This document shows positions 1-22,563 of a stretch of 51,440 bases of DNA, piece by piece. The translations under genes and the position numbers were made by a program. Numbering within the stretch: position 1 is the stretch's first letter; each line of letters opens with the position of its first letter. Source of the DNA: a virus; the IMG/VR virus record IMGVR_UViG_3300023178_000068, positions 1 to 51,440 of that record. One strand, 5' to 3'. The notes under the pieces are model-generated. The model did no database searches. It was not told where the DNA came from and was given only the letters and a program-made list of their open reading frames with translations.

Positions 1-388
1 CCCTAAGACCGTCAACGCTGAAAATAACAGCACCCATCCTGCCAAAGACTTGGGCCAATTCACTCCACCATGCTTCATCTCTTGCTCCTGCGTTTGTATT
101 CATAGATAGCCACATATCTTTGTTGTGTTCTCTAAAATATTTGAATATTTCAAGTGTATCTCGTGCAACAATAGGATCACCCAAGTTACCACACATATAC
201 ATAGTTTTTAATTGTGCAATAAACTCTGGCTCAAATATACGTTTACAATCTTCCAATGTAAGTTCACTTAAATCTATATGCGGATTTAATGCACCGCCGT
301 TTTGATTGCGATCACACATAGGACAACTTGCTTGACAGTTTTGTGTATTTTCTAAGTGTATAACTTTTATATCTTCGTATCTATACAT
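1..388 (-). CDS. Radical SAM protein, 3' end beyond the window
   Basis: The reading frame starts at the ATG at 388-386 and runs off the left edge, so only about 129 N-terminal residues are visible. Residues 18-25 read CQASCPMC, a CxxxCxxC cluster that in radical SAM enzymes binds the 4Fe-4S cluster that cleaves S-adenosylmethionine. About 40 residues later CGNLGDP occupies the place of the usual GGEP-type SAM-binding loop. A strand ending in SMNTNAG and then FSVDG follow, as expected of the partial TIM barrel. It is the last visible gene of the operon that begins at 6254 and overlaps the SGNH-like gene before it by 22 bases. The substrate is unknown. The glycan context suggests a sugar or peptide modification, but that is inference. 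The family call is strong; the function is not. Confidence 0.85.
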   Translation of the reverse strand, partial: MYRYEDIKVIHLENTQNCQASCPMCDRNQNGGALNPHIDLSELTLEDCKRIFEPEFIAQLKTMYMCGNLGDPIVARDTLEIFKYFREHNKDMWLSMNTNAGARDEAWWSELAQVFGRMGAVIFSVDGLR

Positions 389-1104
389 TTCTTCACATAC
401 TTTGCTATATTTTTATTTGTAATTTTTCCCATATGACTATTATCAAATCCTCTATCAATTTTTTCAATATATTGAATATTATAAAAATTACTATCTTCTT
501 CTATAATCGAGAACTGAACGTTTGGTATATTATACATTTCTAACAAATTATTTGTAAATTTTTTGCACCAAAGACTATATGTTTCTATAGTATTTCCATG
601 ATAAACAAGTTCTTCAAATATTTTTCCTTTAGAACCGTATTCTGTATTTGCTCTTATATTATATATACCATCATACGGTTTTGTGAAAGGCAAACCGATA
701 CGCATATTGTTAGGCCATTGAATAATTACTGCTTTCGGAGGTTTTGAACTTGTCATAATATTTGAAATATTCATCATTACTAAATTAGCACTGCCTCCAG
801 ATATTCCAAAATTGTAAACAGGAATATTAAAATGACTTTCTAACAGATTTGAATAACGTTCATTTTCGTGAAGATACAATCCATATGTATTGCTACATCC
901 TAAGGCAGCTATATAATCTTTTTCAAAATCAAATTCGTGTGTCCTATAACCTAAACTATTATGATTGTAGTGTATAGGATCTTCTAATAAATTATAGTAG
1001 CGCCAATCCGATCCTTGTATTTTACATTGTTCTTCCCAGCGTTTTTTATCGTCAGGATGACCAAAATTAATCCAAGATTTGTTAGTTCCGCAAGTAATTA
1101 GCAT
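367..1104 (-). CDS. SGNH/GDSL-type hydrolase-like protein
   Basis: This 245-residue protein carries spaced blocks typical of the SGNH hydrolase fold. They are ALGCSNTYG at 67-75, with Ser71 as the likely nucleophile, NFGISGGSAN at 98-107, which supplies the oxyanion glycine and asparagine, and DNSHMG at 221-226, whose Asp221 and His224 have the D-x-x-H spacing of the catalytic pair. Members of the family add or remove acyl groups on sugars, lipids and cell-wall polymers. No signal peptide is visible, so it should act in the cytoplasm. It overlaps the genes on either side (7 and 22 bases), so it belongs to the glycan operon. An O-acetyl transfer or esterase role on a sugar is plausible but unproven. 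Confidence 0.65.
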   Translation of the reverse strand: MLITCGTNKSWINFGHPDDKKRWEEQCKIQGSDWRYYNLLEDPIHYNHNSLGYRTHEFDFEKDYIAALGCSNTYGLYLHENERYSNLLESHFNIPVYNFGISGGSANLVMMNISNIMTSSKPPKAVIIQWPNNMRIGLPFTKPYDGIYNIRANTEYGSKGKIFEELVYHGNTIETYSLWCKKFTNNLLEMYNIPNVQFSIIEEDSNFYNIQYIEKIDRGFDNSHMGKITNKNIAKYVKKCIDTKI

Positions 1105-1493
1105 ATTTCAAATCCTTTTGCATGACTATACCAACAATACTGTTCTTTTTTAATAGAGTGAAAACTATCGTCAGGAAACAGCATACTAAGATTTAGCACA
1201 ACTAATCCGGATTGTTTACGGCATACTTTTGAAATACATCTACCTAAATGAAAACCGCAATAATAATAATTGTTATATCCTTGTGGTATGTCGTTAACTA
1301 CAACACCTGTTTTCATCTCATCCATAATTTCTCTACCACTTGCATATTGAAATATATCACAATTGTTAATTTGTTTTAATTGTGAATTTATAAATGCACC
1401 AAATAGTTTTGTTTCTTTTTCTAACCAAGGATATTTTTCAACATCTTCTTTTTCACAATGCTTCCATGCATCTACAACAACAAGACAGTTCAT
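1098..1493 (-). CDS. Small protein, tentatively isochorismatase-like
   Basis: This is a 131-residue cysteine-rich protein. The N-terminus CLVVVDAW looks like the first beta strand of an isochorismatase-like cysteine hydrolase, with Asp8 in the position of the catalytic aspartate. The segment YYCGFHLGRC at 77-86 resembles the strand-loop carrying the family's catalytic cysteine, here Cys86. The lysine expected between them could be Lys61. At 131 residues it is shorter than usual members (about 180-220), so it may be a reduced or inactive version, or the resemblance may be accidental. It overlaps the dehydrogenase before it by 4 bases and the SGNH-like gene after it by 7. I do not assign a substrate. 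Confidence 0.4.
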   Translation of the reverse strand: MNCLVVVDAWKHCEKEDVEKYPWLEKETKLFGAFINSQLKQINNCDIFQYASGREIMDEMKTGVVVNDIPQGYNNYYYCGFHLGRCISKVCRKQSGLVVLNLSMLFPDDSFHSIKKEQYCWYSHAKGFEIC

Positions 1494-2590
1494 CCGTTAC
1501 CGTATCCTTTCCACGGATCAAATATTTCTACATTTTCCGGAACAACATCTGTTTGGTGGACCTTTACATATACATCAGGATCTTGTTCAACTATTTTTCC
1601 GCCTAGTTCTTTTACATAGTGCTGCACTAGTAAACTATAGCTGCCATCTGTGTATTCAACACCAGCTTTGTAACTGTTTGAACTAAACTGCACAGCGTTG
1701 CCTTTTTTTAGTATTTCTTTTGCCATGTTACAGGCTTGTTGTTCTCTTGCTGTCATTATGCTGTCAAAAATATCATACCCAAGATTTAATTTATCCGCAA
1801 GATATCGTAATGCAATATTATCTCTTGGATGACATGCGCCGCCATCACCCATACCTGCTTTCATATATGCAGGTCCAGTTATACGTTGGCTACTATGTGC
1901 CAAAGCATCGGTTACTACATCAACATTTATATTTCCTTGTTTAACTGCAACGTCTTGTATCATGTTAACTAATGCAATTTTAGTGCTGATAAATGTATTG
2001 TAAAATACCTTTATACATTCGCATTCGTTATATGTTCCAACTATATATCGCGGATCATTTTCCATAATAATTTTGTAAAAATCAATTAATGTTTTTGCAG
2101 CGTTAGATTTTTTACCATCTTCAGTTCCAATCATTACCATTTCGGGATTTACCATATCCCAAGCTACTGTTCCCATTGCAATTAAATAAGGATTGTAAAT
2201 CAATGTTGCTTTGGTTATCTTTTTCTTTATACGTTCTATAGTGCCTGGTAATACTGTTGATATGATTACCAATATTTGACCTTTACGCATGTTTCGATCA
2301 CATTCGGTTACTACATCTTCTAATATAGTGTAATCAAAATCTTTTGGTGGTAAATGACTTGTAGGCGCACTGCCATCATAAGCAGGGTCGTGTGGCGTTG
2401 GCACAGAAACAAAAACTATATCAGTAGACGAAACTGCTCCTGCAATGTTAGGAAATTGCAATACACGTTTTGTTTTCTTTCTTTCTATATCATAACCATT
2501 GACGCTGATATCTTTGCTGGCTATAATTTCTGCACAAGGTAATCCAAGTTTGCCTAATCCAATCCAACTAATATACATATTCTTCCCCAA
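1490..2590 (-). CDS. UDP-glucose/GDP-mannose-type nucleotide-sugar dehydrogenase
   Basis: The family oxidises a nucleotide sugar twice at C6 with NAD+, giving UDP-glucuronate from UDP-glucose or GDP-mannuronate from GDP-mannose. The Rossmann motif GLGKLGLP is at 11-18. VPTPHDP at 63-69 and STVLPGT at 111-117 are the usual NAD and substrate contacts. ECIKVFYN at 191-198 holds the conserved lysine and asparagine. GDGGACHPRD at 248-257 contains catalytic Cys253, with Arg in place of the usual Lys of the CxPKD motif. The length (366 residues) is slightly below the usual 390-450. Starts at 2590 and at 2578 (MYIS) are both possible; the shorter one removes most of the overlap with the previous gene. 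Its product would feed the glycosyltransferases in the same operon. Which sugar it uses cannot be told from the sequence. Confidence 0.85.
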   Translation of the reverse strand: MGKNMYISWIGLGKLGLPCAEIIASKDISVNGYDIERKKTKRVLQFPNIAGAVSSTDIVFVSVPTPHDPAYDGSAPTSHLPPKDFDYTILEDVVTECDRNMRKGQILVIISTVLPGTIERIKKKITKATLIYNPYLIAMGTVAWDMVNPEMVMIGTEDGKKSNAAKTLIDFYKIIMENDPRYIVGTYNECECIKVFYNTFISTKIALVNMIQDVAVKQGNINVDVVTDALAHSSQRITGPAYMKAGMGDGGACHPRDNIALRYLADKLNLGYDIFDSIMTAREQQACNMAKEILKKGNAVQFSSNSYKAGVEYTDGSYSLLVQHYVKELGGKIVEQDPDVYVKVHQTDVVPENVEIFDPWKGYGNG

Positions 2591-3698
2591 TTGCCAATTG
2601 TAAATTTTCTTTGAGAATATTTTTACTTCTAATCATTTTATATAAATTCAAGTTGTGTTGTAATATAGGTTCCATATCTTTTCTAATAGTAATAAGATCG
2701 TTCCTATTGTAAGTCGAAAACTTTTTAATGTTTTCAATTATTATTTGTATTCTTCTGTTTATATTATAATCATTATCATAAGTTTCGTCAATCCATTCGG
2801 AAAATGTAACAAATCCTCTATTACGCAAATCTTGTAGTGTTCCTGGATTGCCTAGCGTAATGAATGGCATTCCGATCCCAATTGGTTTATAAATTTTTTC
2901 ACTAAAAAACATGTTTTCACTATCAACACTAGTTTCAGTGCTTAGATACAAAAAACTATGTATACAATGTTTTTTTGGAACATTGTAGTTTGGATTTATA
3001 CTAGATAAATCTTCAATATCTAGTGTGTCAAATTTTACTTTGTCTATTTTTGTGTTAGGATTTTCTGCTTTGTATTTTCCGAATATTGTGTATACATCAC
3101 CCCAGGTGTTGAAACCATATTTCAATAAATCATTGTCTATCAATCTGTCTGTAAGCAAACACCTGTGCCATCTAGCCACTCTTGTTAAATTAATGTATAT
3201 TTTATTTGGTTTGTATCTTATGATATCTGAAGCAGGCTCAAATCGTTTAATCCATGTGTCATTATAAATTACTCTGCATTGACCAGATTTAAGTTTTTTA
3301 TCAGCACTTATAATCCATATCTTAACATCAAATTGATATTGTAAATCTTCGGCAATGTAAACAAGTTTTTTGCTTGTTTCGTAAAAATCACATATGCATA
3401 GATATACATTGTTTTGCTGTAATACTGTTTTGTGTTTGGTTATAAATTTTTTTACATAATCTAACCAAGGTTTTTGTGTGAAATGATCTTCGTTGTAATA
3501 AACAATTGGAACTATATAAAAATTATTATTTTTTAAATTTTCATCAGTTTCAATGCTATCAACTGATTTGAATATATCGTTGTCAAAACTTTCAAAAAAA
3601 TATTTGTTTGAAGACTGTGGAATAACAAAATCCTTAAAGGCATTGTTAATAGAAAACTGTTCTTTGTCAAATATTTTTAAAATAGTTTTATTGATCAT
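2568..3698 (-). CDS. Glycosyltransferase, fucosyltransferase (GT10)-like
   Basis: This 376-residue protein has no transmembrane segment. Residues 265-299 contain FFSEKIYKPIGIGMPFITLG followed by a GTLQDLRNRGFVTF stretch. This pattern (SEKI.KPI..G.PFI, then L..L...GF.TF) is the donor-nucleotide binding signature of GT10 fucosyltransferases and related GT-B enzymes. The N-terminal half is not obviously conserved and probably forms the acceptor-binding lobe. The gene overlaps the small unknown gene upstream by 11 bases and the nucleotide-sugar dehydrogenase downstream by up to 23, so it is translated with them. Donor and acceptor are unknown. The GT call rests on one strong motif, so I rate it good but not certain. 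Confidence 0.7.
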   Translation of the reverse strand: MINKTILKIFDKEQFSINNAFKDFVIPQSSNKYFFESFDNDIFKSVDSIETDENLKNNNFYIVPIVYYNEDHFTQKPWLDYVKKFITKHKTVLQQNNVYLCICDFYETSKKLVYIAEDLQYQFDVKIWIISADKKLKSGQCRVIYNDTWIKRFEPASDIIRYKPNKIYINLTRVARWHRCLLTDRLIDNDLLKYGFNTWGDVYTIFGKYKAENPNTKIDKVKFDTLDIEDLSSINPNYNVPKKHCIHSFLYLSTETSVDSENMFFSEKIYKPIGIGMPFITLGNPGTLQDLRNRGFVTFSEWIDETYDNDYNINRRIQIIIENIKKFSTYNRNDLITIRKDMEPILQHNLNLYKMIRSKNILKENLQLAIGEEYVY

Positions 3699-3912
3699 GA
3701 ATTAATTTTACTTCCTTACCAGGGCCTACCTTACTAGGCAAGTCTCCGTATTGTTCTACATACCATTCAATTACTGCCACATACCAATTTTGGCTATTAT
3801 GGTGTGCTTTTTTGTTGAACTGCCAAATATTGTTATTTGTTGCTTGCATAGTGCTTAATGCTCTTGCACTTTCTAACTGTAGTTGTCTTACTGAAAAGTT
3901 ACTTAAATCCAA
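3688..3912 (-). CDS. Small conserved-looking protein of unknown function
   Basis: This is a 74-residue open frame inside a tightly overlapping operon (14 bases shared with the methyltransferase gene, 11 with the glycosyltransferase gene), which argues that it is translated. It begins MDLSNFSVRQLQLESARAL and has an aromatic-rich middle (WYVAVIEWYVEQYG). It has no cysteine pair, signal peptide or membrane segment. I do not recognise it. It could be a partner of either neighbouring enzyme. Confidence 0.6.
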   Translation of the reverse strand: MDLSNFSVRQLQLESARALSTMQATNNNIWQFNKKAHHNSQNWYVAVIEWYVEQYGDLPSKVGPGKEVKLIHDQ

Positions 3913-4942
3913 TTCTCATAAACCTTTTGTAATGTTGCAAATCAAGTTCTCCATTGTATAATTCAGTTTCCATTGGTGTTTGAGATGCAAAACTTTCTAA
4001 GCTACTGTGCGTATTAACATGTTCTTCAATTTCTTCATAGTTGTTACATTGTAACACAACTAGTTTACCGTTTGGTATTTTTGCATACCATTCTTCAAAA
4101 TTCTGTATATGTTCGCAGCTAGTGTTTATAATGGTATTAGGTATATCCCAAAGTCTTTCAAATTCACCATTATCTTTTGATACTATATAATTATGTTCTT
4201 CAAAATCTATATCATGTATATCTTGCACAACTGGTTTAAACTTCCATCCATTTATCCACTGCCTATTGAATATTTCTGCAATATTTTCAGTATTAGGATC
4301 GATATCAAAACTTCTAATTTTTTCAATACTCATGCCAGATTCAAATAGCATTGTTGCTAAAGTTCCATACCAGCCAGCACATAAAAACACAACACCCAAA
4401 TCTACACTTATATTTTTAAGCTCATTTACCAGCCAAATTTTACTTTGTAATTGACCCCTACTTAAACAATCTTCGTCAAATTCTATTTCTTCAAAAAACA
4501 TCCATTTCAATGCATGAGCAAATTGACTATCGGTATATTCTATAAGTGTATCATATAATGCATAAGGATTGTCATATTCTATAATTTTTTTAACTGTTTC
4601 TGCATTAAGTAATTTGTAAATGCTGTGTATGTTATCATTACAAACTGCTTTCTTAAGATCTTCGTAATCATCACCTAATAGTCTAAAAAGACTATATAGA
4701 TTTTGATCAACAACTGCTTTGCGTAAATCCTCAACACTTCCTAGAACTGTAGCATCTTCTGCTAGACGGAATACACTATGAACGTTTTTTTCTAATATTG
4801 CTTTACGTAATTCTTCGTCAGCGTCTGCTAATTTAAAAATACTGTGTATATCATTATCAATGTATGCCCTACGCAAAAACTGTAATTTTTCTATATGAGG
4901 ATACATCAACTCAAATCTATCTAATATCTTATAGATTTCCAT
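3899..4942 (-). CDS. Class I methyltransferase-like protein with N-terminal repeats
   Basis: This 347-residue protein has two parts. Residues 23-134 hold five copies of an 18-residue helical unit of the form LRKA...N.HSIFRL (annotated separately). The C-terminal part looks like a SAM-dependent methyltransferase. VVFLCAGWYGTLATMLF at 184-200 fits motif I (strand then glycine-rich loop). RSFDIDPNTENIA at 210-222 has acidic residues where the SAM ribose is bound. A later TIINTSCEHIQNFEEW segment fits motif IV, followed by a GKLVVLQCNNY strand. Target and reaction are not known. The gene overlaps the upstream three-unit protein by 14 bases. Methylation of a glycan or of another phage product is inferred from the neighbours only. 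Confidence 0.55.
   Translation of the reverse strand: MEIYKILDRFELMYPHIEKLQFLRRAYIDNDIHSIFKLADADEELRKAILEKNVHSVFRLAEDATVLGSVEDLRKAVVDQNLYSLFRLLGDDYEDLKKAVCNDNIHSIYKLLNAETVKKIIEYDNPYALYDTLIEYTDSQFAHALKWMFFEEIEFDEDCLSRGQLQSKIWLVNELKNISVDLGVVFLCAGWYGTLATMLFESGMSIEKIRSFDIDPNTENIAEIFNRQWINGWKFKPVVQDIHDIDFEEHNYIVSKDNGEFERLWDIPNTIINTSCEHIQNFEEWYAKIPNGKLVVLQCNNYEEIEEHVNTHSSLESFASQTPMETELYNGELDLQHYKRFMRIGFK
4541..4876 (-). repeat. Five tandem 18-residue units in the methyltransferase-like protein
   Basis: Units start at residues 23 (LRRAYIDNDIHSIFKLAD), 45 (LRKAILEKNVHSVFRLAE), 73 (LRKAVVDQNLYSLFRLLG), 96 (LKKAVCNDNIHSIYKLLN) and a degenerate one at 117 (VKKIIEYDNPYALYDTLI). The spacing is 21-28 residues. 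The common pattern is L-[RK]-[RK]-A-x5-N-x-[HY]-S-[IVL]-[FY]-[RK]-L, which looks like one amphipathic helix per unit and suggests a short solenoid or docking arm. Confidence 0.85.
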
Positions 4943-6254
4943 TAAATTTTTCCTTTAACCAGTCAAAATCGTTTATCATTTTTAATGCTTCTGTATCAGT
5001 TTTGTTTGCAGATCCGTATGCCATGCCAGCACGAGCACCAGCAATAGCATGTTCTCCAAATGGTTTATCTCTGCCAATACTACACCAAATTTTTAATCTT
5101 CTTTCAGTTTCATCATCTTTTTGTCTATCAATAATTTTACTGCTTAATTTACAACATTCTCTAAAAGCACTTTTCCATGTTTCAAACTCGCCGGTATTGA
5201 ATCCTGTAACATTGCTTACTTTTTTTACAGCAACAAACTTATCACTAATACTTGTAGTCATATCCGGCTTACTGGTATCCATGTCAATTGTAAGTTGTCT
5301 TGGAAATAGTTTTACTCCGCCGTATCCGTATACCAATCCGTTTATAGGATTTTTACTTCTCCACACATGAACATGATTATGTTGCCATGCAGGTATCGGA
5401 TAATCAAATTCAAAATCATCTACTATAGTTGCATCGCCATCAACAATCCAAATCATAGGGGTTGAACAAATTTTTGCTGCTTCAATGTGTGCTTGATGTA
5501 TTCCTTTTACACCATGCACTCTTTTTGCGTTTGGTGCTTTCTTTTTCAAATTCTCATAGTTTATATCAGCATCTGGTTCTTGATAACTTATAAAAACAAC
5601 ATCATAAGGCTTAGGATAACTTGCAACAATATTGTGTTCTTTTTTTCCTGCAATAAATTTAAATGTCCATTCTCTTTCGCTGATTTTTACTTTTTTACTG
5701 CATAACATAACACCATCATGATGTTCACCATTTAAGAACATATGATTAATTTTTTTATCATATGGATTATGATGACTTATATAAAAATCAAATTTATAAT
5801 CGTTGCAAATATTAACATAATTAGGAACAATATAAAACATATCAAACTGCGATGTTTCAAAGGCTTTAACATATTCTTCATATGTATCAGCATAAAATAT
5901 TTCATATTTGGCAGGGGTGCTTGCTAAAATTTCTACCTTTTTGTGTGCAACATAAAATCTATTTTCTATTTCTTTATCAGAATAGTTATGGGTTTTTGGA
6001 AGCAAAACTATGCCATCGTATTCTTTATCATTAAGGAATACGTGAGCTACATCTTGACTCCATTCATCAGGAATATAATCAAACGCAAAATTATCTTGTA
6101 TTTCAGTATCTGCATACACAATCCAAAAATGCTTTGTTAAGCTCTTTTGTGTTGCTTTTGTTACACTTTCAGCACATTTTGCAGCTGGATAATTTTGTTT
6201 GAATTTTTGCCATTGTATATCAGATTTTGAACCAACATAGAATATATCATACAT
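4929..6254 (-). CDS. Three-unit glycosyltransferase-like protein
   Basis: This 441-residue protein is built of three related units. Unit 3 (about 217-441) starts YDVVFISYQEPDADINYENL and contains RVHGVKG at 245-251 and IWIVDGD at 268-274. The DGD motif is where a GT-A glycosyltransferase would bind metal and nucleotide sugar. INGLVYGYGG follows at 304-313. Unit 1 (1-112, YDIFYV...) and unit 2 (117-212, YEIFYA...) share the framework, including a strand, the FxFDY region and HxFLNxxxxDGxxL, but have YAD or PNY where unit 3 has DGD, so only unit 3 is likely catalytic. The 309-residue protein at 10461-11390 is a paralogue of unit 3. It is the first gene of the operon and the predicted transcription start falls on its ATG. 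No Shine-Dalgarno sequence is visible. The GT assignment is by motif only. Confidence 0.55.
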   Translation of the reverse strand: MYDIFYVGSKSDIQWQKFKQNYPAAKCAESVTKATQKSLTKHFWIVYADTEIQDNFAFDYIPDEWSQDVAHVFLNDKEYDGIVLLPKTHNYSDKEIENRFYVAHKKVEILASTPAKYEIFYADTYEEYVKAFETSQFDMFYIVPNYVNICNDYKFDFYISHHNPYDKKINHMFLNGEHHDGVMLCSKKVKISEREWTFKFIAGKKEHNIVASYPKPYDVVFISYQEPDADINYENLKKKAPNAKRVHGVKGIHQAHIEAAKICSTPMIWIVDGDATIVDDFEFDYPIPAWQHNHVHVWRSKNPINGLVYGYGGVKLFPRQLTIDMDTSKPDMTTSISDKFVAVKKVSNVTGFNTGEFETWKSAFRECCKLSSKIIDRQKDDETERRLKIWCSIGRDKPFGEHAIAGARAGMAYGSANKTDTEALKMINDFDWLKEKFNGNL

Positions 6255-6260
6255 ACAGTA

Positions 6261-6289
6261 ATTATACTAAAATGATAAAGCGATGTCAA
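6261..6289 (-). promoter_or_regulatory. Perfect-consensus sigma70-type promoter for the glycan operon
   Basis: On the minus strand, TTGACA (6289-6284) is followed by exactly 17 bases and TATAAT (6266-6261). Counting from the -10 box, the predicted first transcribed base is about 6254, the A of the ATG of the three-unit protein. The mRNA would therefore be leaderless, and no ribosome binding site is seen upstream. The box lies in the 74-base divergent gap shared with the late promoter of the plus-strand tail-fibre gene. Confidence 0.85.
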
Positions 6290-6301
6290 GAACAGAATTA
6301 G

Positions 6302-6309
6302 GATAAATA
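6302..6309 (+). promoter_or_regulatory. T4-type late promoter box GATAAATA
   Basis: GATAAATA, close to the T4 late consensus TATAAATA, ends 19 bases before the ATG of the tail-fibre gene. AAGGAG at 6318-6323 gives a ribosome binding site 5 bases before the start. It matches six other boxes in the window in sequence and distance. Late boxes of this type are recognised by gp55-containing polymerase. Confidence 0.75.
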
Positions 6310-6328
6310 CTTTACACAAGGAGTTCCT

Positions 6329-7723
6329 ATGGCAGATTTTATACCAGGTGAAAGTTACAGATTAGATGTAGTTGGTGCTGACGGCGATCTTTTAGTAGAT
6401 AGTTGGACCAGTCAAGTAAAAGCAAGTGTTGTATCAAAGGCAGGTTCTTTACAAGTTGATGTTGATACAGGCAAAGTTTTTGGACCATTAATTGGTGACA
6501 TTGAAGACATCGACGGCACCGTAATATTTGATAGCTCAGCTAATACTATTAAAACAAATTTAATCGGTGAAGTTAGAGATCTTTCAGGAAACATAGTAGT
6601 AGATCCTGAAGTTGCAATGGTAAATGCTGATGTTACAGGAAACGTGTTAGATGAATTTGGTAGTGCTATAATTGATATTGCAAATCGGACTGTTGATGCT
6701 GATGCTGTATATGGAACATTTTATGGAGACCTTATTGGTAACGTAACCAGTGATAGCACACTGTTTGGCGCTTTCAGTGGTGATTTTAACGGAAGTCATT
6801 ATGGAGAGTTTTACGGAGACATTACAGGTAATGTTACTGGTTCAGTTACAGGGGATGTTATAGGTAATGTTACTGGAGTTGTAACTGGTAGCCTTATTGG
6901 CGAAGTTATGGCAGACGAAAATACTTCACTTATGGCGCCGCCAAACGATGATTACAATCAACATAACTGGTTAGGTGGAATAGCACATCCCGTTTTACCA
7001 CCAGAAGATGCAATAGCTAGAGGACCAATTGTTGTTTTAGGAGCAGATAGATCAGAAAGCTCATTACGTGGACACGTAGAGCATTACGATGGAAGACCTA
7101 TTGTAAAAGCAGATATTTTAGGAAATTCACCTTGGGTTGCACATCATTTTGGTAAATTCAGAGGCGAGTTATACAGTGGAAGTGACAAAGCCCTACTTAC
7201 ATACAACGAAAATACTGGACAAGTAATTGTTAAGTCATATGGTATACTTTCACTTGAGGCTTATAATGGCACAGGCGCTTTAAATTTTGTTGGCGATACA
7301 GCAACATTTAATGTAAGAGGTCCACAAACTGTAAGAAGTTTTAACGGAACTTGGGATAATAAAACAGCACTACTGCCAGACGATTGTGTATTACAATTTG
7401 ATGCAGAAGGTTTTGATGGCAACGGTTGGAGACAGGCAGGTGGATTTGGTATCTATGTTGCAGACGAACCTATCAACAATACAGCATACAATGCATACTT
7501 TGGAGTTGCGCTATCCAACGGAGTTAACGGCCCGGCAGCAAATGAATCTAAAGGTTTGATATTTGATAGCGCAGGTGTTCTAAGAACGCCAATAGCCAAA
7601 GTAGGAAGCCATACATATGCACAACGTGACAGTATGTCAGCCGAAGCAGGCATGATAATTTTCAACAGTAGCAGTAACAAGTTTGAAGGTTACAACGGCA
7701 GTGCTTGGGTTGTGCTAGGCTAA
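6329..7723 (+). CDS. Tail-fibre-like protein with Gly tetrapeptide repeats
   Basis: This 464-residue, likely trimeric beta-structured virion protein begins MADFIPGESYRLDVVGADG. The N-terminal part has several related segments of about 35 residues (GDIEDIDGTVIFD, GEVRDLSGNIVVD, GNVLDEFGSAIID), each a short beta hairpin. A run of GxVx tetrapeptides follows (residues 163-190). The C-terminus SMSAEAGMIIFNSSSNKFEG ending in an NGSAW motif is the type found at the tips of phage tail fibres. It lies alone on the plus strand, has its own late promoter, and its stop codon overlaps the convergent desaturase stop by 3 bases. It probably contributes to receptor recognition. No chaperone or enzymatic domain is seen. 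Confidence 0.75.
   Translation: MADFIPGESYRLDVVGADGDLLVDSWTSQVKASVVSKAGSLQVDVDTGKVFGPLIGDIEDIDGTVIFDSSANTIKTNLIGEVRDLSGNIVVDPEVAMVNADVTGNVLDEFGSAIIDIANRTVDADAVYGTFYGDLIGNVTSDSTLFGAFSGDFNGSHYGEFYGDITGNVTGSVTGDVIGNVTGVVTGSLIGEVMADENTSLMAPPNDDYNQHNWLGGIAHPVLPPEDAIARGPIVVLGADRSESSLRGHVEHYDGRPIVKADILGNSPWVAHHFGKFRGELYSGSDKALLTYNENTGQVIVKSYGILSLEAYNGTGALNFVGDTATFNVRGPQTVRSFNGTWDNKTALLPDDCVLQFDAEGFDGNGWRQAGGFGIYVADEPINNTAYNAYFGVALSNGVNGPAANESKGLIFDSAGVLRTPIAKVGSHTYAQRDSMSAEAGMIIFNSSSNKFEGYNGSAWVVLG
6815..6898 (+). repeat. Tetrapeptide repeat GxVT/GxVI in the fibre gene
   Basis: Seven consecutive 12-base units encode GDIT, GNVT, GSVT, GDVI, GNVT, GVVT and GSLI, with GEV after them. At DNA level, GGTAATGTTACTGG occurs twice. 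The fibre gene at 19814-21955 has a similar run (GNLQ, GNVN, GNVT, GNVT, antisense of about 20660-20720), so the two fibres share a short recombinable repeat. Confidence 0.85.
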
Positions 7724-8466
7724 GTTTTAATCAATCTTATAATCCATGCAGGAGGATCAAGTTCCCACCAACGTTCTTGATTGTTCCATGCTTTACTATT
7801 AGCATGATGATTGTTGTGCCAACCTTCTCCTAGTGTAATTAAACTTGCTATCCAACTATTGCGGCTTTCATCATCTACATTGTGATTTTTGTATCCATGG
7901 ATGTGTGCAATTACAATAATTGCACTTGTGCTGTGTAGCACCAACACAGTTGGTATAGCATAAGCAAATATAACAAGTAATGGATTTACTACAAACAATA
8001 TTGCAACATAAACAATATTAATTAAGAAATAATATCTGTGTGTTAGTTTATAAAAATTTTGTTTACGTATGTCTTTGATATATTTTGGATTGATATGCTG
8101 TATATTCCAAAAACCAAACCATGCTTTTGCCCAACCTAGTTTGTGTGGGCTATGAACGTCTTTGTCTGTATCAGCATGTCCATGATGTTGTCTGTGTATT
8201 GCTGTCCATGCAAGCGGACTACCTATCATTGTAATACAACCGATTAGTCCTAAAACATATTCTAACCATTTGTATGTTGTAAAACTCCTATGACTTATAA
8301 GTCTGTGATATCCTATGTTTATACCAAATACACCTATAAACCAATAGGTAAGTAAGCTGTATAAAAGATATACAGGCGATAAATCGTAAAACAAAATCAA
8401 ACTTAATCCAACTAATAGTAAAATGTGGTTAAGTATTTGTGTAGCTCGGACTAATGTATTGTGCAT
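7720..8466 (-). CDS. Membrane fatty-acid (acyl-lipid/acyl-CoA delta-9 type) desaturase
   Basis: This di-iron integral-membrane desaturase would introduce a double bond into membrane acyl chains. All three histidine boxes are present (numbered from the ATG at 8466): HRLISH at 54-59, HRQHH at 91-95 and HNNHH at 217-221, plus GEGWHNNHH. Four hydrophobic segments flank them. The length, 248 residues, is short but complete for the bacterial type. I chose the ATG at 8466 rather than the GTG at 8484 because GGAG lies 6 bases upstream of it. It has its own sigma70-type promoter. Lipid desaturases are known in marine cyanophages, where they are thought to adjust membrane fluidity during infection; the same role is inferred here. 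Its stop codon overlaps that of the convergent fibre gene. Confidence 0.9.
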   Translation of the reverse strand: MHNTLVRATQILNHILLLVGLSLILFYDLSPVYLLYSLLTYWFIGVFGINIGYHRLISHRSFTTYKWLEYVLGLIGCITMIGSPLAWTAIHRQHHGHADTDKDVHSPHKLGWAKAWFGFWNIQHINPKYIKDIRKQNFYKLTHRYYFLINIVYVAILFVVNPLLVIFAYAIPTVLVLHSTSAIIVIAHIHGYKNHNVDDESRNSWIASLITLGEGWHNNHHANSKAWNNQERWWELDPPAWIIRLIKT

Positions 8467-8475
8467 TATTACTCC

Positions 8476-8503
8476 ATTATACACTATTTAATCAAAATGT
8501 CAA
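8476..8503 (-). promoter_or_regulatory. Sigma70-type promoter for the desaturase
   Basis: On the minus strand, TTGACA (8503-8498) is separated by 16 bases from TATAAT (8481-8476). The predicted start of transcription is about 8469, only 3 bases before the ATG. The GGAG would then lie at or upstream of the RNA 5' end, so the transcript may be near-leaderless. The -35 box coincides with the start codon region of the divergent plus-strand gene. Confidence 0.75.
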
Positions 8504-9123
8504 TGTGGAAACTAGAAATTTATAACGGAACACAGGACTTGGAACAGTGGTTTCATGATGCTGCTGCTAAGAATTATGTTAATAACAGCAGCCAACAAAT
8601 GTTACTTGATTACTTGCAAAACGAAGAAGATACAACATTATTTTTATTATACAACAACAACAGGATAGTAGGAAATTTTGTTACACACAGATTGCGTAGT
8701 TTAGGTATACTTGGCGCAAATGCACATAGAATAGCTGCAAGGATGTGTGTGATAAATGATCATATTAAAGGACCAAGAAAGATTGCTGGATTGCGTAGCA
8801 TGAACGCAGAAAACTGCCACGATCATATAAACCATCAATTTTTATATAGTGTTGGTATACGTTATTTAGGTTTAGACACGCCAATGTATGTAAGTAGCCA
8901 TCCTAGTGCAGTAGGCAGTCAAAAAATAGTTCATAATAAATATTGTCCTAAACTAAAAGAAATAGGATTATTACAAGAACCTATTGAGTTGGAATATAGA
9001 AATCATTTTCAATATTTTTGGAGAGTGAACACTGAAAAATGGTGGGATACGTTTGTAGAGCAACAATGGCCTGAAAGCAAAGAGTGCTTAGATGTATTCT
9101 TTGCACAACTCAAAGAAATCTGA
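8497..9123 (+). CDS. Protein of unknown function
   Basis: The product has about 208 residues when started at the ATG at 8497 (MSMWKLEIYNG; an ATG at 8503 is also possible). The frame is open upstream to a GTG at 8461, but that would overlap the desaturase start and has no ribosome site. I see no clear Shine-Dalgarno sequence before any start. The stretch LFLLYNNNRIVGNF is reminiscent of strands 2-4 of a GNAT acetyltransferase, but the acetyl-CoA loop (RxxGxG/A) is missing, so I do not name it. It is rich in His, Asn and Trp, and has no signal or membrane segment. It ends 36 bases inside the convergent radical SAM gene. No good plus-strand promoter is seen. Confidence 0.6.
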   Translation: MSMWKLEIYNGTQDLEQWFHDAAAKNYVNNSSQQMLLDYLQNEEDTTLFLLYNNNRIVGNFVTHRLRSLGILGANAHRIAARMCVINDHIKGPRKIAGLRSMNAENCHDHINHQFLYSVGIRYLGLDTPMYVSSHPSAVGSQKIVHNKYCPKLKEIGLLQEPIELEYRNHFQYFWRVNTEKWWDTFVEQQWPESKECLDVFFAQLKEI

Positions 9124-10461
9124 CATTTCTGGAAACACTTGTTCATGATCGACTCCACGTCTACGACCTTGTTCTGCAAAGAAGTTGTGAAAGTCTCTAC
9201 GTCCTTGTATAACTTTGTCTAATGGATATTCTGTTGTATCCATATAATCAACAACACGCCTAAACTTTTCGTATTCAATAGTGCTAAAAGCATCTTTGCG
9301 ATTGTCATCTACATTTTCTTTTATAAACTGCAAATGGTCACGCATATAGCTCATATAATGCTTAGGTAAAATATTAATATCATATTGCAACGGCTCTTTA
9401 AGGTGTGGTGTATCAAAGCCCAAACGTTGCCATCTGTGTGTTTCAACGTCATTGTATTTTGCACGCCATTCTAAGATTTTTTCTAATAGTGTGCGGAATG
9501 TTGTTACACTGAAAATGTTAAACGTAATCATCAACACCATAGGTGCTTCACAGTTTCGCATAAAATAATCCAAGTTGCGTTCAAAAACTTCAATGTCTAA
9601 GCCGTCACGGATATATTCTGCACGTTTGCCCCAAGTGTCAATACTTGTAAACATTTTGAAGCGTCTAATCTTATTATTTGTTAGCAAGTCATTTACACGA
9701 TTTGTAAACTTTTCCAACTGCTTTGGTTTGCCACCTAAGTTACTGTTACAGTTTAGTTCTAGTTCTGGCTTAGGATCTGCATCCAACATATCAAACAGTT
9801 TGTATGTGCTTTTTTGTATTGTAGGCTCACCTCCTGTAATACGCAAGATGTGTAGTTCTTTACTAAGCTCAGGCCACCAACGCCAAAATGCATCCAGATA
9901 CGGATTGTTTTCTTCTTCAAATATTTTGAACCAATCAATGTCACATCTATGATTACGCACCATATCATACGGTCCGTGTTGTTTTATCTCTTGATAATAT
10001 CTGCTGCTGGCTTTTGGATGACAGTAACCACAACGGAAGTTACACTCGTTGCCAAAACTTACTTCTAAGTATTCTGGATTAACATCAAATTCTGCGCCGC
10101 CTTCTTTTACTGCTTTGAGTCTGTGCTTGAAGAAGATAGTTTGATTACGCTGTTTTCTATCACTAACATAATCTTTGCCAAGTGCTTCAATTTTCCAGCA
10201 GTAACTACAGCCAGCAGGTTGTTCACCACGCATCATAGCAGCACGTTCTTGTTTCTTTTGTGCTGTGTTGTGTATTGCACTTGGATTTTCTAATAATGGT
10301 GCTGTGTCAATTTTATGGGGAGCAGGATGATAACAACTGTGTGTTTCACCTGTCTGGAAATATATGTTGGCATGATACCATTTTGCGAAACAAAACGTAG
10401 GTGATATTTCTTGTGTTATTGCATCAATGCGCTTTATTTCTTCGCTTTCGCTACGCTCCAT
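9088..10461 (-). CDS. Twitch-domain radical SAM protein
   Basis: This 457-residue protein has the radical SAM cluster motif CNFRCGYC at 140-147 and a later RITGGEPT segment that binds SAM. Before the core are further cysteines at 24, 43, 85 and 88 (CSYCWK), which could bind an auxiliary iron-sulfur cluster as in SPASM/twitch enzymes. This places the extra domain N-terminal, an order I recall from phage-encoded 'twitch domain-containing radical SAM' proteins. It is the last gene of the operon from 13945, starts with a 1-base stop/start overlap (10461), and its 3' end overlaps the convergent gene. The substrate is unknown. Together with the truncated one at 1-388, this phage has at least two distinct radical SAM enzymes beside glycosyltransferases. 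Confidence 0.85.
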   Translation of the reverse strand: MERSESEEIKRIDAITQEISPTFCFAKWYHANIYFQTGETHSCYHPAPHKIDTAPLLENPSAIHNTAQKKQERAAMMRGEQPAGCSYCWKIEALGKDYVSDRKQRNQTIFFKHRLKAVKEGGAEFDVNPEYLEVSFGNECNFRCGYCHPKASSRYYQEIKQHGPYDMVRNHRCDIDWFKIFEEENNPYLDAFWRWWPELSKELHILRITGGEPTIQKSTYKLFDMLDADPKPELELNCNSNLGGKPKQLEKFTNRVNDLLTNNKIRRFKMFTSIDTWGKRAEYIRDGLDIEVFERNLDYFMRNCEAPMVLMITFNIFSVTTFRTLLEKILEWRAKYNDVETHRWQRLGFDTPHLKEPLQYDINILPKHYMSYMRDHLQFIKENVDDNRKDAFSTIEYEKFRRVVDYMDTTEYPLDKVIQGRRDFHNFFAEQGRRRGVDHEQVFPEMSDFFELCKEYI

Positions 10462-15235: not shown

Positions 15236-16237
15236 CTAGAGGCTGGTAATTAATGAGTAAGCAGGAGCAGGATTATTAACATATGATGTGCTATCTGCTC
15301 TTAAATGACTAATACTACTGGTTAGTGTTCCGTTAACTCTTTCGTCTGCGCCTCCAGAACCGTTTGCATCATCAGCGAATGTAATTAGAAATCTAATTTG
15401 ACTACTTGATTCTTCTTTAGCTTGTATAGTGTATTCGTTATCAATGTATGCTGCTGAACCAGTTTTTGTATAAATGGTTTGATAACTTGATGTTAAATCA
15501 AGGTTACCAATTGCAGATCCTGTGCCTGCGCCGGTTACAGTATCGTCAGATACATCTTCACCGTCTGGTTCTCCGTCGCCGCCTGTAATATTTAAGTTAT
15601 AACTATCAGTTGTGTCATAATTAAACTTGACAGTTTGCATTGCTGCTAACATTAATTTCCAGTCTTCAGTTTTTTGATAATCTGGATCAGATACTGTTAA
15701 GGAATGAGATAAAGAAGAACTAAATCTTATTTCGCCGCCTGCATTGAAAAAACCTCTACGAGCATTTGCTGAACCAAAATCAACAATAAACTCATGTATT
15801 ACACTCTGTGGTAATGAACTACCACCCCATACAGTAGATCTTGAACTGTTTGCACCCGAAGATTCAACAGCAGCGTAATTGAAATTTATATCAAATCTGT
15901 TTGTTTCTAGTGCTGAAAGGTTAGCTTCATATTCAGCATATAGGTCATCCCAAATCAAACCTCTTTGATATTCTTCAAAACCCGATTTCAAACGAGTTTC
16001 AACATCTATTCCAATCAATCCTCCAGGTAAAGCACCTGTTTGATGGACATGTATTTTTGTGTAGTCTGATGCTAAGTTTTGTAAATCTTCAGCAGTAACA
16101 TCGTTGCCAGGCAAAACCGGAGTTGACAAGACTGTATTATTGTATCCTTTATCTCCACTTCCAACACCTAAGAGTGTAGCAACTCTACCTTGTAGTGTGT
16201 TGTATCTAGCTGCGCCTACAATGTCTTCTACTGCCAT
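15236..16237 (-). CDS. Virion/tail-fibre-associated protein, paralogue of the preceding entry
   Basis: This 333-residue protein starts MAVEDIVGAARYNTLQGRVA. It shares with the 14008-15183 protein HVHQTG, a conserved Trp/Asp region (GLIWDDLYAEY), the block RRGFFNAGGEIRF and DWKLMLAAMQTVKF. The C-terminal part is a predicted beta domain with acidic loops. It has its own late promoter and a GGA ribosome site. Its function is unknown; membership of the late structural block makes a virion role likely. Confidence 0.6.
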   Translation of the reverse strand: MAVEDIVGAARYNTLQGRVATLLGVGSGDKGYNNTVLSTPVLPGNDVTAEDLQNLASDYTKIHVHQTGALPGGLIGIDVETRLKSGFEEYQRGLIWDDLYAEYEANLSALETNRFDINFNYAAVESSGANSSRSTVWGGSSLPQSVIHEFIVDFGSANARRGFFNAGGEIRFSSSLSHSLTVSDPDYQKTEDWKLMLAAMQTVKFNYDTTDSYNLNITGGDGEPDGEDVSDDTVTGAGTGSAIGNLDLTSSYQTIYTKTGSAAYIDNEYTIQAKEESSSQIRFLITFADDANGSGGADERVNGTLTSSISHLRADSTSYVNNPAPAYSLITSL

Positions 16238-16260
16238 AACTATTCCTTAATTAACTACGT

Positions 16261-16268
16261 ATATTTAT
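16261..16268 (-). promoter_or_regulatory. T4-type late promoter box ATAAATAT
   Basis: The TAAATA core ends 24 bases before the ATG at 16237. The TAA stop codon of the fibre gene 16265-17773 is formed by the first three bases of TAAATA, so promoter and stop share sequence. Confidence 0.7.
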
Positions 16269-17773
16269 GTTTTCAAAATACACTCAACAAGTTTTTCTTC
16301 TGCATTTGTATTTGTTTCAAGTGCTATACCAATTAATGCTCTTGTTGCAGTAGTTGTGCAAACACCATCTTGCCATGCGTATACTGCTTGACCTTTTGAT
16401 ACTGGTTCTTTTACTCTTACTGGAACACGACCTTTAAGTGCAATAGCCTGTCCGTCAAGATCACTGTTCATCAAATAAGCAGGATTTTCACTTATAACAC
16501 CAACTGCAATATCTGAACTCTTACATGCTGTTGCTTCTGCTTCGATTTCAGCACCACCAATTGCCATAGCTGTTCCAACAGGATACTCTTTATCAGTTGT
16601 ATAATTTTCAGCTAGGTCAGCATAACGTGCTTTTGTTGCTGTTCCTGAAAATAAAACAGCAGAAAGGTTACCAGACGGATCTCTAACTGCTACTGTGTTT
16701 GCAGTATCAGCTGTGGACGCTGTTCTTGCAGTTCCAGCAACATCAAGTGCAGCAGCAGAAGTTGCTTCACCATTAAATGTATCTGCCCAAACATTTGAAA
16801 ATTTAAGTGCTGAACTACCAATGTTATACTGAGCTGTTGTTTCAGGAAAAATACCTGTATTTGTAGCATCTACATTTCTAACACTGATAATATTTGCAAC
16901 ACCAACTCCGCTACGTGTAGCACCAAAATATATCCTATCACCGATTGTATTTTGTATTTGTCCTATTGTATCTGAAACAATACTTACAGACAAATCATTA
17001 CTGTTACCAACTGTAAATCCTGCATCTGCAAATCTTGCAGTTGTTGTAAAGTTTGCTGTAGTTGATGTAAGGAAATCACTTGCTGGTTGTCCATTTAATT
17101 TGAGTGCATCGCTTGCAGTTGCCCAAAGAACTGGTTCGCCTGCAGTGCCTGCTCCTGTTGTAACACCGGTTGTGCTATCAGTATTAATCAGTGTAATACC
17201 TCGACGTATTAGAGTAAATCCTGTTAAATCTGGAACATCTGCAGGTTGTGTTGATCCTAATGTAAATTCTTGTGAGCTGATGACATAAACTGGTGTATCG
17301 TTAATAAGAGCAACAATAATAGACTTGTTAGCACTGAGGGTGTCTGTTACTGTAACACTTAACATTTGTGTTGTTCCGTCGCCAGCAGCTTGTGGACCTA
17401 CAAGTATAAATTCACCTGTGCCGTTTTTTGCATATAGCTGGCTACTTGTGGTGCTATACCAAAGGTCGCCTTCGTTTAATCCTGCAGGTTCTGTAGCAGC
17501 AACTTCAGCGCCGCCTGCATTTTTCCATGCTGTTCCTGTATAGAATTTAAGTTTTGCAGTTCCTGCATCATACCAAACCTGTCCTGTAATTGCTTTTGCA
17601 GGTGCAGTTGTATTTGCAAAATGCTCTAGTAAATGCAAAAAGTTCTCGTTTTGTGCTTCGCCGTAACCACTGTAGTTTTTACCTATCAGTTTGATATCGG
17701 TAGTTTGATCAACTGTGCCGTCTTCAACTACAACCAGTTGGTTACCGTTAAAAGTGTTTATTATGTATGCCAT
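16265..17773 (-). CDS. Tail-fibre-like protein 3 of a tandem family
   Basis: This 502-residue protein shares its N-terminal module of roughly 200 residues with the next two fibre proteins: NENFLHLLEHFANTTAPAKA then GQVWYDAGTAKLKFYTGTAW, GDLWYSTTSSQLY and a SQEFT..GFTLIRRG segment. That common module is probably the virion attachment and trunk part. The C-terminal part is different: ARYADLAENYTTDKEYPVGT, then GVISENPAYLMN and KGRVPVRVKEPVSKGQAVYA. This type of end domain occurs at the tips of many phage fibres and appendages. Receptor binding or fibre assembly is inferred. It has its own late promoter and a GAGG site before the ATG. Confidence 0.75.
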   Translation of the reverse strand: MAYIINTFNGNQLVVVEDGTVDQTTDIKLIGKNYSGYGEAQNENFLHLLEHFANTTAPAKAITGQVWYDAGTAKLKFYTGTAWKNAGGAEVAATEPAGLNEGDLWYSTTSSQLYAKNGTGEFILVGPQAAGDGTTQMLSVTVTDTLSANKSIIVALINDTPVYVISSQEFTLGSTQPADVPDLTGFTLIRRGITLINTDSTTGVTTGAGTAGEPVLWATASDALKLNGQPASDFLTSTTANFTTTARFADAGFTVGNSNDLSVSIVSDTIGQIQNTIGDRIYFGATRSGVGVANIISVRNVDATNTGIFPETTAQYNIGSSALKFSNVWADTFNGEATSAAALDVAGTARTASTADTANTVAVRDPSGNLSAVLFSGTATKARYADLAENYTTDKEYPVGTAMAIGGAEIEAEATACKSSDIAVGVISENPAYLMNSDLDGQAIALKGRVPVRVKEPVSKGQAVYAWQDGVCTTTATRALIGIALETNTNAEEKLVECILKT

Positions 17774-17794
17774 ATTCGCTCCTCGTGCTTACAC

Positions 17795-17802
17795 TTATTT
17801 AT
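17795..17802 (-). promoter_or_regulatory. T4-type late promoter box ATAAATAA
   Basis: Minus-strand ATAAATAA, preceded by ACG as in the box at 22582-22589, ends 22 bases before the ATG at 17773. GAGGAG lies just before the start codon. Confidence 0.7.
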
Positions 17803-17807
17803 CGTAA

Positions 17808-21955: not shown

Positions 21956-22563
21956 TAAATGTTACCTCCACTCAAACTCTGCACTCTAACTGTATAATCA
22001 ATTTGTATAAGTCTGTTTAAGGATTTTTGCACAGGATGGAATATAACATGTGTTATAAGTTTTCCTGTGCCAGTTGGTGAATAACTTATCAATCCAAGTT
22101 CATCAAAAACAAATTGGTCTTCAGCATTGGCGGCAGTATCGTATGCTGCTTGACCATCTGGCTCACCATAATCTAACAAACATGAAACTAATATGTCAGT
22201 ATAATTAGTTCCACTTAAATGCCTTGTTTCTATTTTGTTCCTTGTTGGATCAGTGTTGTTTACACTTTGATCATCAACTACTTTTGTATAGGTTTGATTA
22301 TAAAGGCTTGCATTAGTTCCTGTGCTGTTGGGTGTGAGATACGTAATTATACCAGTAGGATCAACACTTGTGCCTCCATTGCCAAACGCCATTTCATATA
22401 TAAATCCTTGGCCAGCATTACCGAGGCTTTCTGCCAAAGCAATACTCATGTTTTCATAATGAATAGCATTACGTTTGTTTATAAAGACTTCACCAGATTC
22501 TGGGTTGTGTATCTTTATATGTCCTTCAACGTGTATGCCGCTATAATCAGTTTTTTGTTCCAT
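21955..22563 (-). CDS. Virion structural protein of unknown role
   Basis: This 202-residue protein starts MEQKTDYSGIHVEGHIKIHN, with INKRNAIHYENMSIALAESL following and an IYEMAFGNGG segment. A similar N-terminal pattern occurs, as far as I recall, next to the fibre genes of T4-like marine phages. It could be a baseplate or fibre connector such as T4 gp9 or gp11, but I see no clear match. It is the first gene of the fibre transcription unit, with a late promoter 18 bases upstream, and it ends in a TAATG overlap with the collar-domain fibre. Confidence 0.65.
   Translation of the reverse strand: MEQKTDYSGIHVEGHIKIHNPESGEVFINKRNAIHYENMSIALAESLGNAGQGFIYEMAFGNGGTSVDPTGIITYLTPNSTGTNASLYNQTYTKVVDDQSVNNTDPTRNKIETRHLSGTNYTDILVSCLLDYGEPDGQAAYDTAANAEDQFVFDELGLISYSPTGTGKLITHVIFHPVQKSLNRLIQIDYTVRVQSLSGGNI

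Follow-up and report, generated by a model that had tools for sequence, protein, structure and literature searches.

The window analysed here, the whole 51,440-base stretch of IMG/VR record IMGVR_UViG_3300023178_000068, contains two minus-strand operons of putative glycan-assembly genes beside the tail-fibre genes of a large marine T4-like phage. Operon 1 comprises eight open reading frames, each overlapping the next by 4–23 nt, in the end-to-end arrangement described by a first-pass annotation of the same DNA: GTa (6254-4929), MT (4942-3899), sm74 (3912-3688), GTb (3698-2568), UGD (2590-1490), p131 (1493-1098), a gene for an SGNH-type hydrolase/acyltransferase-like protein (1104-367), and rSAM1 (388-2). 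Operon 2 (13945-9088) encodes three glycosyltransferases (GTs), a twitch radical S-adenosylmethionine (SAM) protein, and two proteins of no assigned function. As shown by gene order in relatives, the locus combines a conserved core (p115 and a pair of GT8 genes after the fibre genes; GTa, MT, sm74, and rSAM1) with exchangeable cargo.

The glycan-building character of operon 1 is carried by several profile and structure matches. UGD (366 aa) is firmly assigned by its profiles as a nucleotide-sugar dehydrogenase of the UDP-glucose/GDP-mannose 6-dehydrogenase type (PF03721, 5.1e-18; PF00984, 9.7e-17; phrog_9148, 4.6e-96), and it is 50–60% identical to HTVC008M and Bellamy genes. GTa (441 aa), the first backbone gene, has a GT-A domain at residues ~213–430 after two smaller repeats. 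Its AlphaFold model (pLDDT 91.5) matched chondroitin polymerase K4CP in Foldseek (E 1.6e-6), residues 214–423 compared with GT-A enzymes at VIA Z 9–11, and at the level of the predicted structure the C-terminal domain is confirmed as a GT-A glycosyltransferase. This domain swamped the structure search for residues 1–210, and so no fold is claimed for the N-terminal part. The GTa family is also found in GT-rich bacterial loci. GTb (376 aa) has no Pfam match; the top Foldseek matches of its model (pTM 0.78) are GT-B enzymes (TreT, SdgB, and Gtf3/GtfC; E 4e-4 to 1e-2, TM ~0.4), and with this moderate support it is probably a GT-B glycosyltransferase. The 245-aa SGNH protein matches PF20078 (DUF6473) at 34.2 bits against a cut-off of 27, and its alignment conserves block I (GCS.T.G), with GCS and D221..H224 invariant; the PDB matches are weak and all of them SGNH, and by profile and motifs the assignment holds. 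The window edge cuts rSAM1 after the first 129 aa, and operon 1 is therefore incomplete at its 3' end. The radical SAM assignment of this fragment holds by its matches to PF04055 (1e-4) and phrog_21308 (6e-11) and its 88% identity to a 359-aa protein of the related contig L011.

The remaining three proteins of operon 1 are less readily placed. The C-terminal half of MT (347 aa) resembles Rossmann/SAM methyltransferases by motifs, with the pattern in register in a conserved block (VFLCAGWYGTLATMLFE...IRSFDID); there was no match in Pfam, NCBIfam, and further profile searches, and hhalign scored no better than with unrelated controls. In p131 (131 aa), Asp and Cys positions resemble those of isochorismatase-type hydrolases and are conserved, the Lys of the triad was not identified, and hhalign against an isochorismatase set gave a probability of 5.8 with the Cys in register. 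The 74-aa sm74 has no assigned function; it is 66–84% identical across relatives and conserved over its full length, and 324 encoding stretches were found among pattern matches in viral contigs. The motif-based calls of the first-pass annotation thus stand for the dehydrogenase, the glycosyltransferases (moderately for the 376-aa protein), the SGNH protein, and the radical SAM protein, while those of a methyltransferase and an isochorismatase gained no significant profile match.

Operon 2 begins with p115 (13945-13598; no assigned function), followed by two GT8-like glycosyltransferase genes, GTe (13601-12759) and GTd (12772-11927), whose alignment profile (A2) matches glycogenin at 4e-8 with an invariant DxD. 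Next come p181 (11925-11380; no assigned function), GTc (11390-10461), a predicted GT-A transferase of the GTa family (alignment A7) with zero matches among 50,697 phage records, and rSAM2 (10461-9088), a twitch-domain radical SAM protein that matches NF033640 at 2.8e-89 (300 bits against a curated cut-off of 170). Profiles and alignments therefore bear out the earlier description of a second operon with three glycosyltransferases and a radical SAM enzyme. A viperin-like match of rSAM2, the only PADLOC match worth noting (1e-5), covers the generic radical SAM core and is far exceeded by NF033640, and a defence function was rejected. By hydropathy, the two operons encode no multi-pass membrane protein, with one borderline segment in MT; the multi-pass flippase GtrA and the membrane-bound transferases of Gtr-type serotype conversion were likewise not found in them. 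Taken by their predicted activities, the UDP-sugar dehydrogenase, the GT8 pair, the GT-A pair, the GT-B-like protein, and the SGNH protein fit the building and tailoring of a glycan.

The modular structure of the locus is evident from close relatives. In blastn alignments, window positions 3694-9915 and 3-388 are contiguous in relative L295 at 83–85% identity, so that the ~3.3 kb between them (389-3693, minus strand), which carries GTb, UGD, p131, and the SGNH gene between sm74 and rSAM1, represents an insertion at this point or, alternatively, a clean loss from L295. In L296, the slot between sm74 and rSAM1 holds only a GTb-like gene, and both relatives are without the dehydrogenase, p131, and SGNH genes. 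Wider gene order was surveyed in locus sets baited with sm74 and with p202, each the best 80 matches per scan and thus a non-random sample with some near-duplicates. The gene immediately upstream of sm74 is MT in 63 of 67 loci, and the next gene downstream is rSAM1 in 47/67 and GTb in 7/67. The conserved gene p202 belongs to a run of tail-fibre/structural genes (p333, p502, p668, p713, and p202; 15236-22563, minus strand) that lies immediately upstream of the cassette and matches tail fibre and virion families of PHROG; p115-GTe-GTd follows the fibre genes in 46 of the 49 loci that extend at least 9.5 kb downstream of this bait. In nonredundant loci, p115 adjoins GTe in 21/21 and p181 adjoins GTc in 12/12. 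The cargo between core genes of other relatives includes aminotransferase, hexapeptide transferase, epimerase, carbamoyltransferase, and further radical SAM genes, and a colinear 335,231-bp contig, PBPT01000016.1 (the 335-kb relative), also carries genes of the DegT aminotransferase and hexapeptide transferase types, which are typical of surface amino sugars. The genes of the operon do co-occur in relatives, a point named beforehand as one on which the proposed unit could fail. The operon survives as a set of glycan-assembly genes but not as a fixed set of eight; L295 and L296 keep the backbone with most of the cargo gone, and a fixed eight-gene operon with L011 as its nearest relative was dropped in favour of a backbone with inserted cargo.

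Fusions and bacterial counterparts extend this picture. Many relatives have operon 2 and UGD-GTa-MT in a single block, all on the same strand and adjoining the fibre genes, and in one (L016:7332-10004) GTc-GTa-MT form a single 890-aa protein; a GTc-GTa fusion occurs in five proteins, partly from duplicate contigs. Because the two operons are a single block in many relatives and fused in one, they probably serve one pathway. An Oligoflexia chromosome encodes an rSAM1-GTa fusion followed by MT, and from the fusions we infer that the two operons and the radical SAM gene are functionally tied. A 937-kb Bdellovibrionia contig has several radical SAM genes together with GTa, MT, and genes resembling p131, GTb, and the SGNH gene; the last two were read by eye, with a Lipase_GDSL match below threshold for the SGNH-like one. 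The set of genes is thus not confined to phages, and members of the MT family were found in 30 of 144 Bdellovibrionia genomes. On Bdellovibrionota chromosomes, the GTa and MT homologues sit in clusters rich in radical SAM genes (L101:1067-18578 and L102:8804-15153), one of them with an rSAM1-GTa fusion.

The abundance of radical SAM genes raises the question of whether the cassette makes something other than a glycan. In a natural-product-like pathway, the radical SAM proteins and sm74 would make a modified peptide or small molecule that the sugar enzymes decorate. Relatives have up to 10 radical SAM genes per 21 kb, sm74 and rSAM1 are tightly linked and among the best conserved genes, and neighbouring families include halogenase, P450, AMP-binding, and B12-binding domains. 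However, sm74 is conserved end to end, contains no Cys, and lacks a variable core; neither a peptidase nor an exporter was seen among the cassette genes, and the halogenase- and P450-type neighbours were drawn from many loci and perhaps are not all cassette members. We consider such a pathway unlikely. It is also improbable, in our estimate, that the radical SAM enzymes, with sm74 as carrier or activator, make the sugars of a phage glycan pathway whose gene set is shared with Bdellovibrionota chromosomes, the cassette being a docking backbone for exchangeable sugar modules. As a separate observation, rSAM1/rSAM2 of the window match ten radical SAM genes within 21 kb of one phage contig (L011:920-20302), several of them in tandem.

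The cassette and the structural genes differ in promoter class. A sigma-70-type promoter (TTGACA-17-TATAAT; 6289-6261, minus strand) lies 6 nt before the GTa start codon, in agreement with the consensus promoter noted in the first-pass annotation, and perfect matches of this type number two in the window against 0.09 expected. Operon 2 is preceded by a related promoter (TTGACT-17-TATACT; 13996-13968, minus strand). Promoters of the same kind recur in relatives: at least 11 of 12 sigma-70-type positions matched in 14/38 distinct GTa upstream regions and 25/43 distinct p115 upstream regions, against 0/38 and 0/43 after shuffling, and the late motif occurred in none of either. The relatives' GTa promoters end 5–7 nt before the start codon, so that leaderless mRNAs are predicted. 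The same prediction follows for the perfect promoters at 6261-6289 and 8476-8503 (minus strand) in the window and at L011:7118-7146, which end 5–9 nt before start codons; perfect promoters in the first locus set fell into two distance classes, ~5–6 nt and 20–30 nt from the start. The T4-type late motif ATAAATA precedes a fibre-like gene (6329-7723, plus strand) at 6303-6309 (plus strand), and further copies lie at 16262, 17796, 22582, and 40286 (minus strand). The window has six copies against 31 expected, and five of the six sit 18–24 nt before structural genes (binomial chance 4e-10). In relatives, the motif was found upstream of p502 (47/58), p202 (53/64), and fiber464 (19/27), and none of these regions reached at least 11 of 12 sigma-70-type positions. 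Judged by these motifs, the classes split cleanly into sigma-70-type for the cassette and T4-type late for fibre and baseplate genes, in line with the earlier claim that the cassette belongs to a different class from the structural genes. The cassette of the 335-kb relative has neither strong sigma-70-type nor late motifs, and there it may be transcribed by read-through from the late fibre operon.

The source phage, by its predicted proteins, is an uncultivated T4-like jumbo-type myovirus, and the window is a fragment of its genome, encoding T4-like gp46/gp47, gp5, gp6, and a 4739-aa virion protein (phrog_10938). Among isolates, gp6 (1152 aa) is closest to the jumbo phages Phosso, GAP32, and MIJ3 (34–37% identity); it is 43–58% identical to proteins of uncultivated contigs of up to 186 kb. 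Contigs with a 640-aa T4-type gp6 match it only at E ~1e-6 to 1e-8, and the close gp6 expected of a Kyanoviridae/pelagimyophage genome type was not found. In the 335-kb relative, p276, gp47, and gp46 are 75–78% identical to those of the window and gp6 is 55% identical. PBPT01000016.1 and PBPT01000082.1 (L084 and L087; 335 and 153 kb) are phage contigs inside a Neomarinimicrobiota genome bin in which the locus is present twice, and their placement in that metagenome-assembled genome looks like binning contamination. The 335-kb relative encodes an alphaproteobacterial-type transfer-messenger RNA (tmRNA; Rfam 145 bits), and the permuted phage-encoded tmRNA of this type, with the tag ANDNYAPEMAMAA, lies at L168:2048-2400. 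All parts of a phosphate-type ABC transporter (binding protein, two permeases, and ATPase) are encoded in one operon on this relative's phage contig (L166:13938-17951). A link to the moraphage jumbo lineage was unsupported: the report on that lineage is without mention of radical SAM, and its predicted hosts are mostly Bacteroidota (PMC12619734).

The combination of genes was initially thought to match no known system, but the same gene kinds lie beside tail fibres in the host-recognition cluster (HRC) of pelagimyophages. In pelagimyophages and cyanomyophages, the HRC is a hypervariable island that adjoins the tail fibres and lies downstream of a giant baseplate protein; it contains radical SAM cassettes, UDP-glucose 6-dehydrogenase, and glycosyltransferases, GT8 enzymes prominent among them, and O-chain modification was proposed for it (Zaragoza-Solas et al. 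2020, PMC7029224). The window has the same order of baseplate gp6, the 4739-aa protein (likened to VrlC by position), fibre genes, and cassette, and its glycosyltransferase, UDP-glucose dehydrogenase, and radical SAM genes vary among relatives. The HRC ends at the neck gene gp14 (PMC7029224); the window stops earlier, inside rSAM1. It differs in its phage, a jumbo-type T4-like one with gp6 nearest those of GAP32/Phosso-type phages, in the near-fixed p115-GT8-GT8 start and the GTa-MT-sm74-rSAM1 backbone with cargo insertion, and in a GTc family without a match in isolate phage records. In cyanophage P-SSM2, 24 lipopolysaccharide (LPS) genes form two clusters, whose proposed role is to change the surface of the infected cell; no gene order homologous to that of the window is shown for them, and the accessible passage of the review does not describe radical SAM content (PMC2984593). 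The T4-like Campylobacter phages CP220/CPt10 (PMC2853527) and the T4-like phage TARA_ERS488813_N000010 (PMC5332604) have 11, 12, and 12 radical SAM genes in partly interchangeable modules of unexplained function, but no linked GTa/GTc-MT backbone is described for them. The locus matches the published HRC in content and location. As far as the searchable literature shows, its new features are the lineage, the promoter split, the fusions, the counterpart in bacteria, and a backbone and cargo that meet at a precise junction.

The likely role of the two operons is to modify a surface, either that of the infected cell or that of the virion. GT8 enzymes are known to act on the LPS core. We tentatively favour, at slightly short of an even chance, the view that the host-recognition region houses a modular locus for glycan assembly, which alters the envelope glycan of the infected cell, the acceptor step being the least certain. 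Soluble enzymes would make a uronate-type donor, and sugars would be added in sequence and then tailored by acylation, probable methylation, and radical SAM chemistry. As with GT8 enzymes of the LPS core, the acceptor, the least certain element, would be a lipid-linked envelope glycan at the inner face of the host membrane. The receptor of the infected cell would be altered before progeny are made, and through linkage with the fibre genes, changes to the receptor would stay in step with what the fibres recognise. This model fits the GT8 enzymes and the early-type promoters, and an envelope or superinfection reading has already been proposed for pelagimyophage (PMC7029224) and cyanophage (PMC2984593) clusters.

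Several points weigh against this interpretation. MT as a SAM methyltransferase is a candidate assignment from motifs and was not confirmed, and Pfam, NCBIfam, PDB profile, and hhalign searches returned nothing significant for p131 as an isochorismatase. Apart from the desaturase, a scan of the cassette turned up no multi-pass membrane protein, whether a flippase, a polymerase, a ligase, or another kind, and export would accordingly depend on the host. The tmRNA of the 335-kb relative gives the sole hint of that host, a weak one that points to an alphaproteobacterium. Additionally, the linkage of the GT8 pair to the fibre genes (46/49) fits fibre glycosylation equally.

Mycobacteriophages glycosylate their own capsid and tail proteins, and the enzymes of the cassette could similarly act in the cytoplasm to add sugars to tail fibres or baseplate proteins of the phage itself. 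Besides the position of p115-GT8-GT8 directly after the fibre genes, such a role is favoured by the lack of membrane proteins in the cassette operons and by some structural neighbours of GTa and GTb, which are peptide or protein glycosyltransferases (SunS/ThuS, Gtf3/GtfC, and SdgB); however, common folds do not reveal the acceptor. The GTc-GTa-MT fusion has the GT-GT-MT domain order of PBCV-1 A064R, a soluble early capsid-glycan enzyme (PMC9614988). A064R is one of eight glycosyltransferase genes expressed early (PMC9614988), and because these chlorovirus virion glycosyltransferase genes are also early, early-type promoters are compatible with virion glycosylation. The PBCV-1 A064R/A061L system resembles the window in its GT-GT-methyltransferase order and in being soluble, virus-encoded, and early, but it belongs to a eukaryotic virus with a known acceptor, and the likeness is one of architecture alone. 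Against virion glycosylation, the late motif seen before the fibre genes precedes none of the window's cassette genes, and a UDP-sugar dehydrogenase with O-chain-type sugar genes is the usual content of surface polysaccharide clusters. We regard glycosylation of the virion as a real possibility, held with low confidence.

T-even phages use glycosyltransferases in DNA modification, and the cassette might by that general precedent, to which no result of this analysis points, protect DNA bases against restriction. The first-pass annotation had raised a sugar for DNA modification, which now seems very unlikely: the phage contig of the 335-kb relative has no gene of the thymidylate synthase/dCMP-hydroxymethylase family (one occurs only on another contig of the bin), no DNA glucosyltransferase profile match was found, and the cassette is linked to fibre genes. 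Cyanomyoviruses are without sign of modified bases (PMC2984593). Between the two operons, the fibre-like gene at 6329-7723 is accompanied by a fatty acid desaturase gene (7720-8484, minus strand) and a gene for a 220-aa protein with a weak acyltransferase-like match (8461-9123, plus strand), and this set is kept in L295 and L296.

Islands of glycosyltransferase and radical SAM genes are common in marine T4-like phages, and the accounts consulted here are without a demonstrated acceptor for them. This locus offers a minimal testable core, GTa-MT-sm74-rSAM1 and p115-GT8-GT8, together with natural pairs with and without cargo (the window and L011 versus L295), and its promoter split separates timing from position. 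Distinguishing the host from the fibre as the target of the sugar would settle a proposal made for cyanophage clusters (PMC2984593) and repeated for pelagimyophages (PMC7029224).

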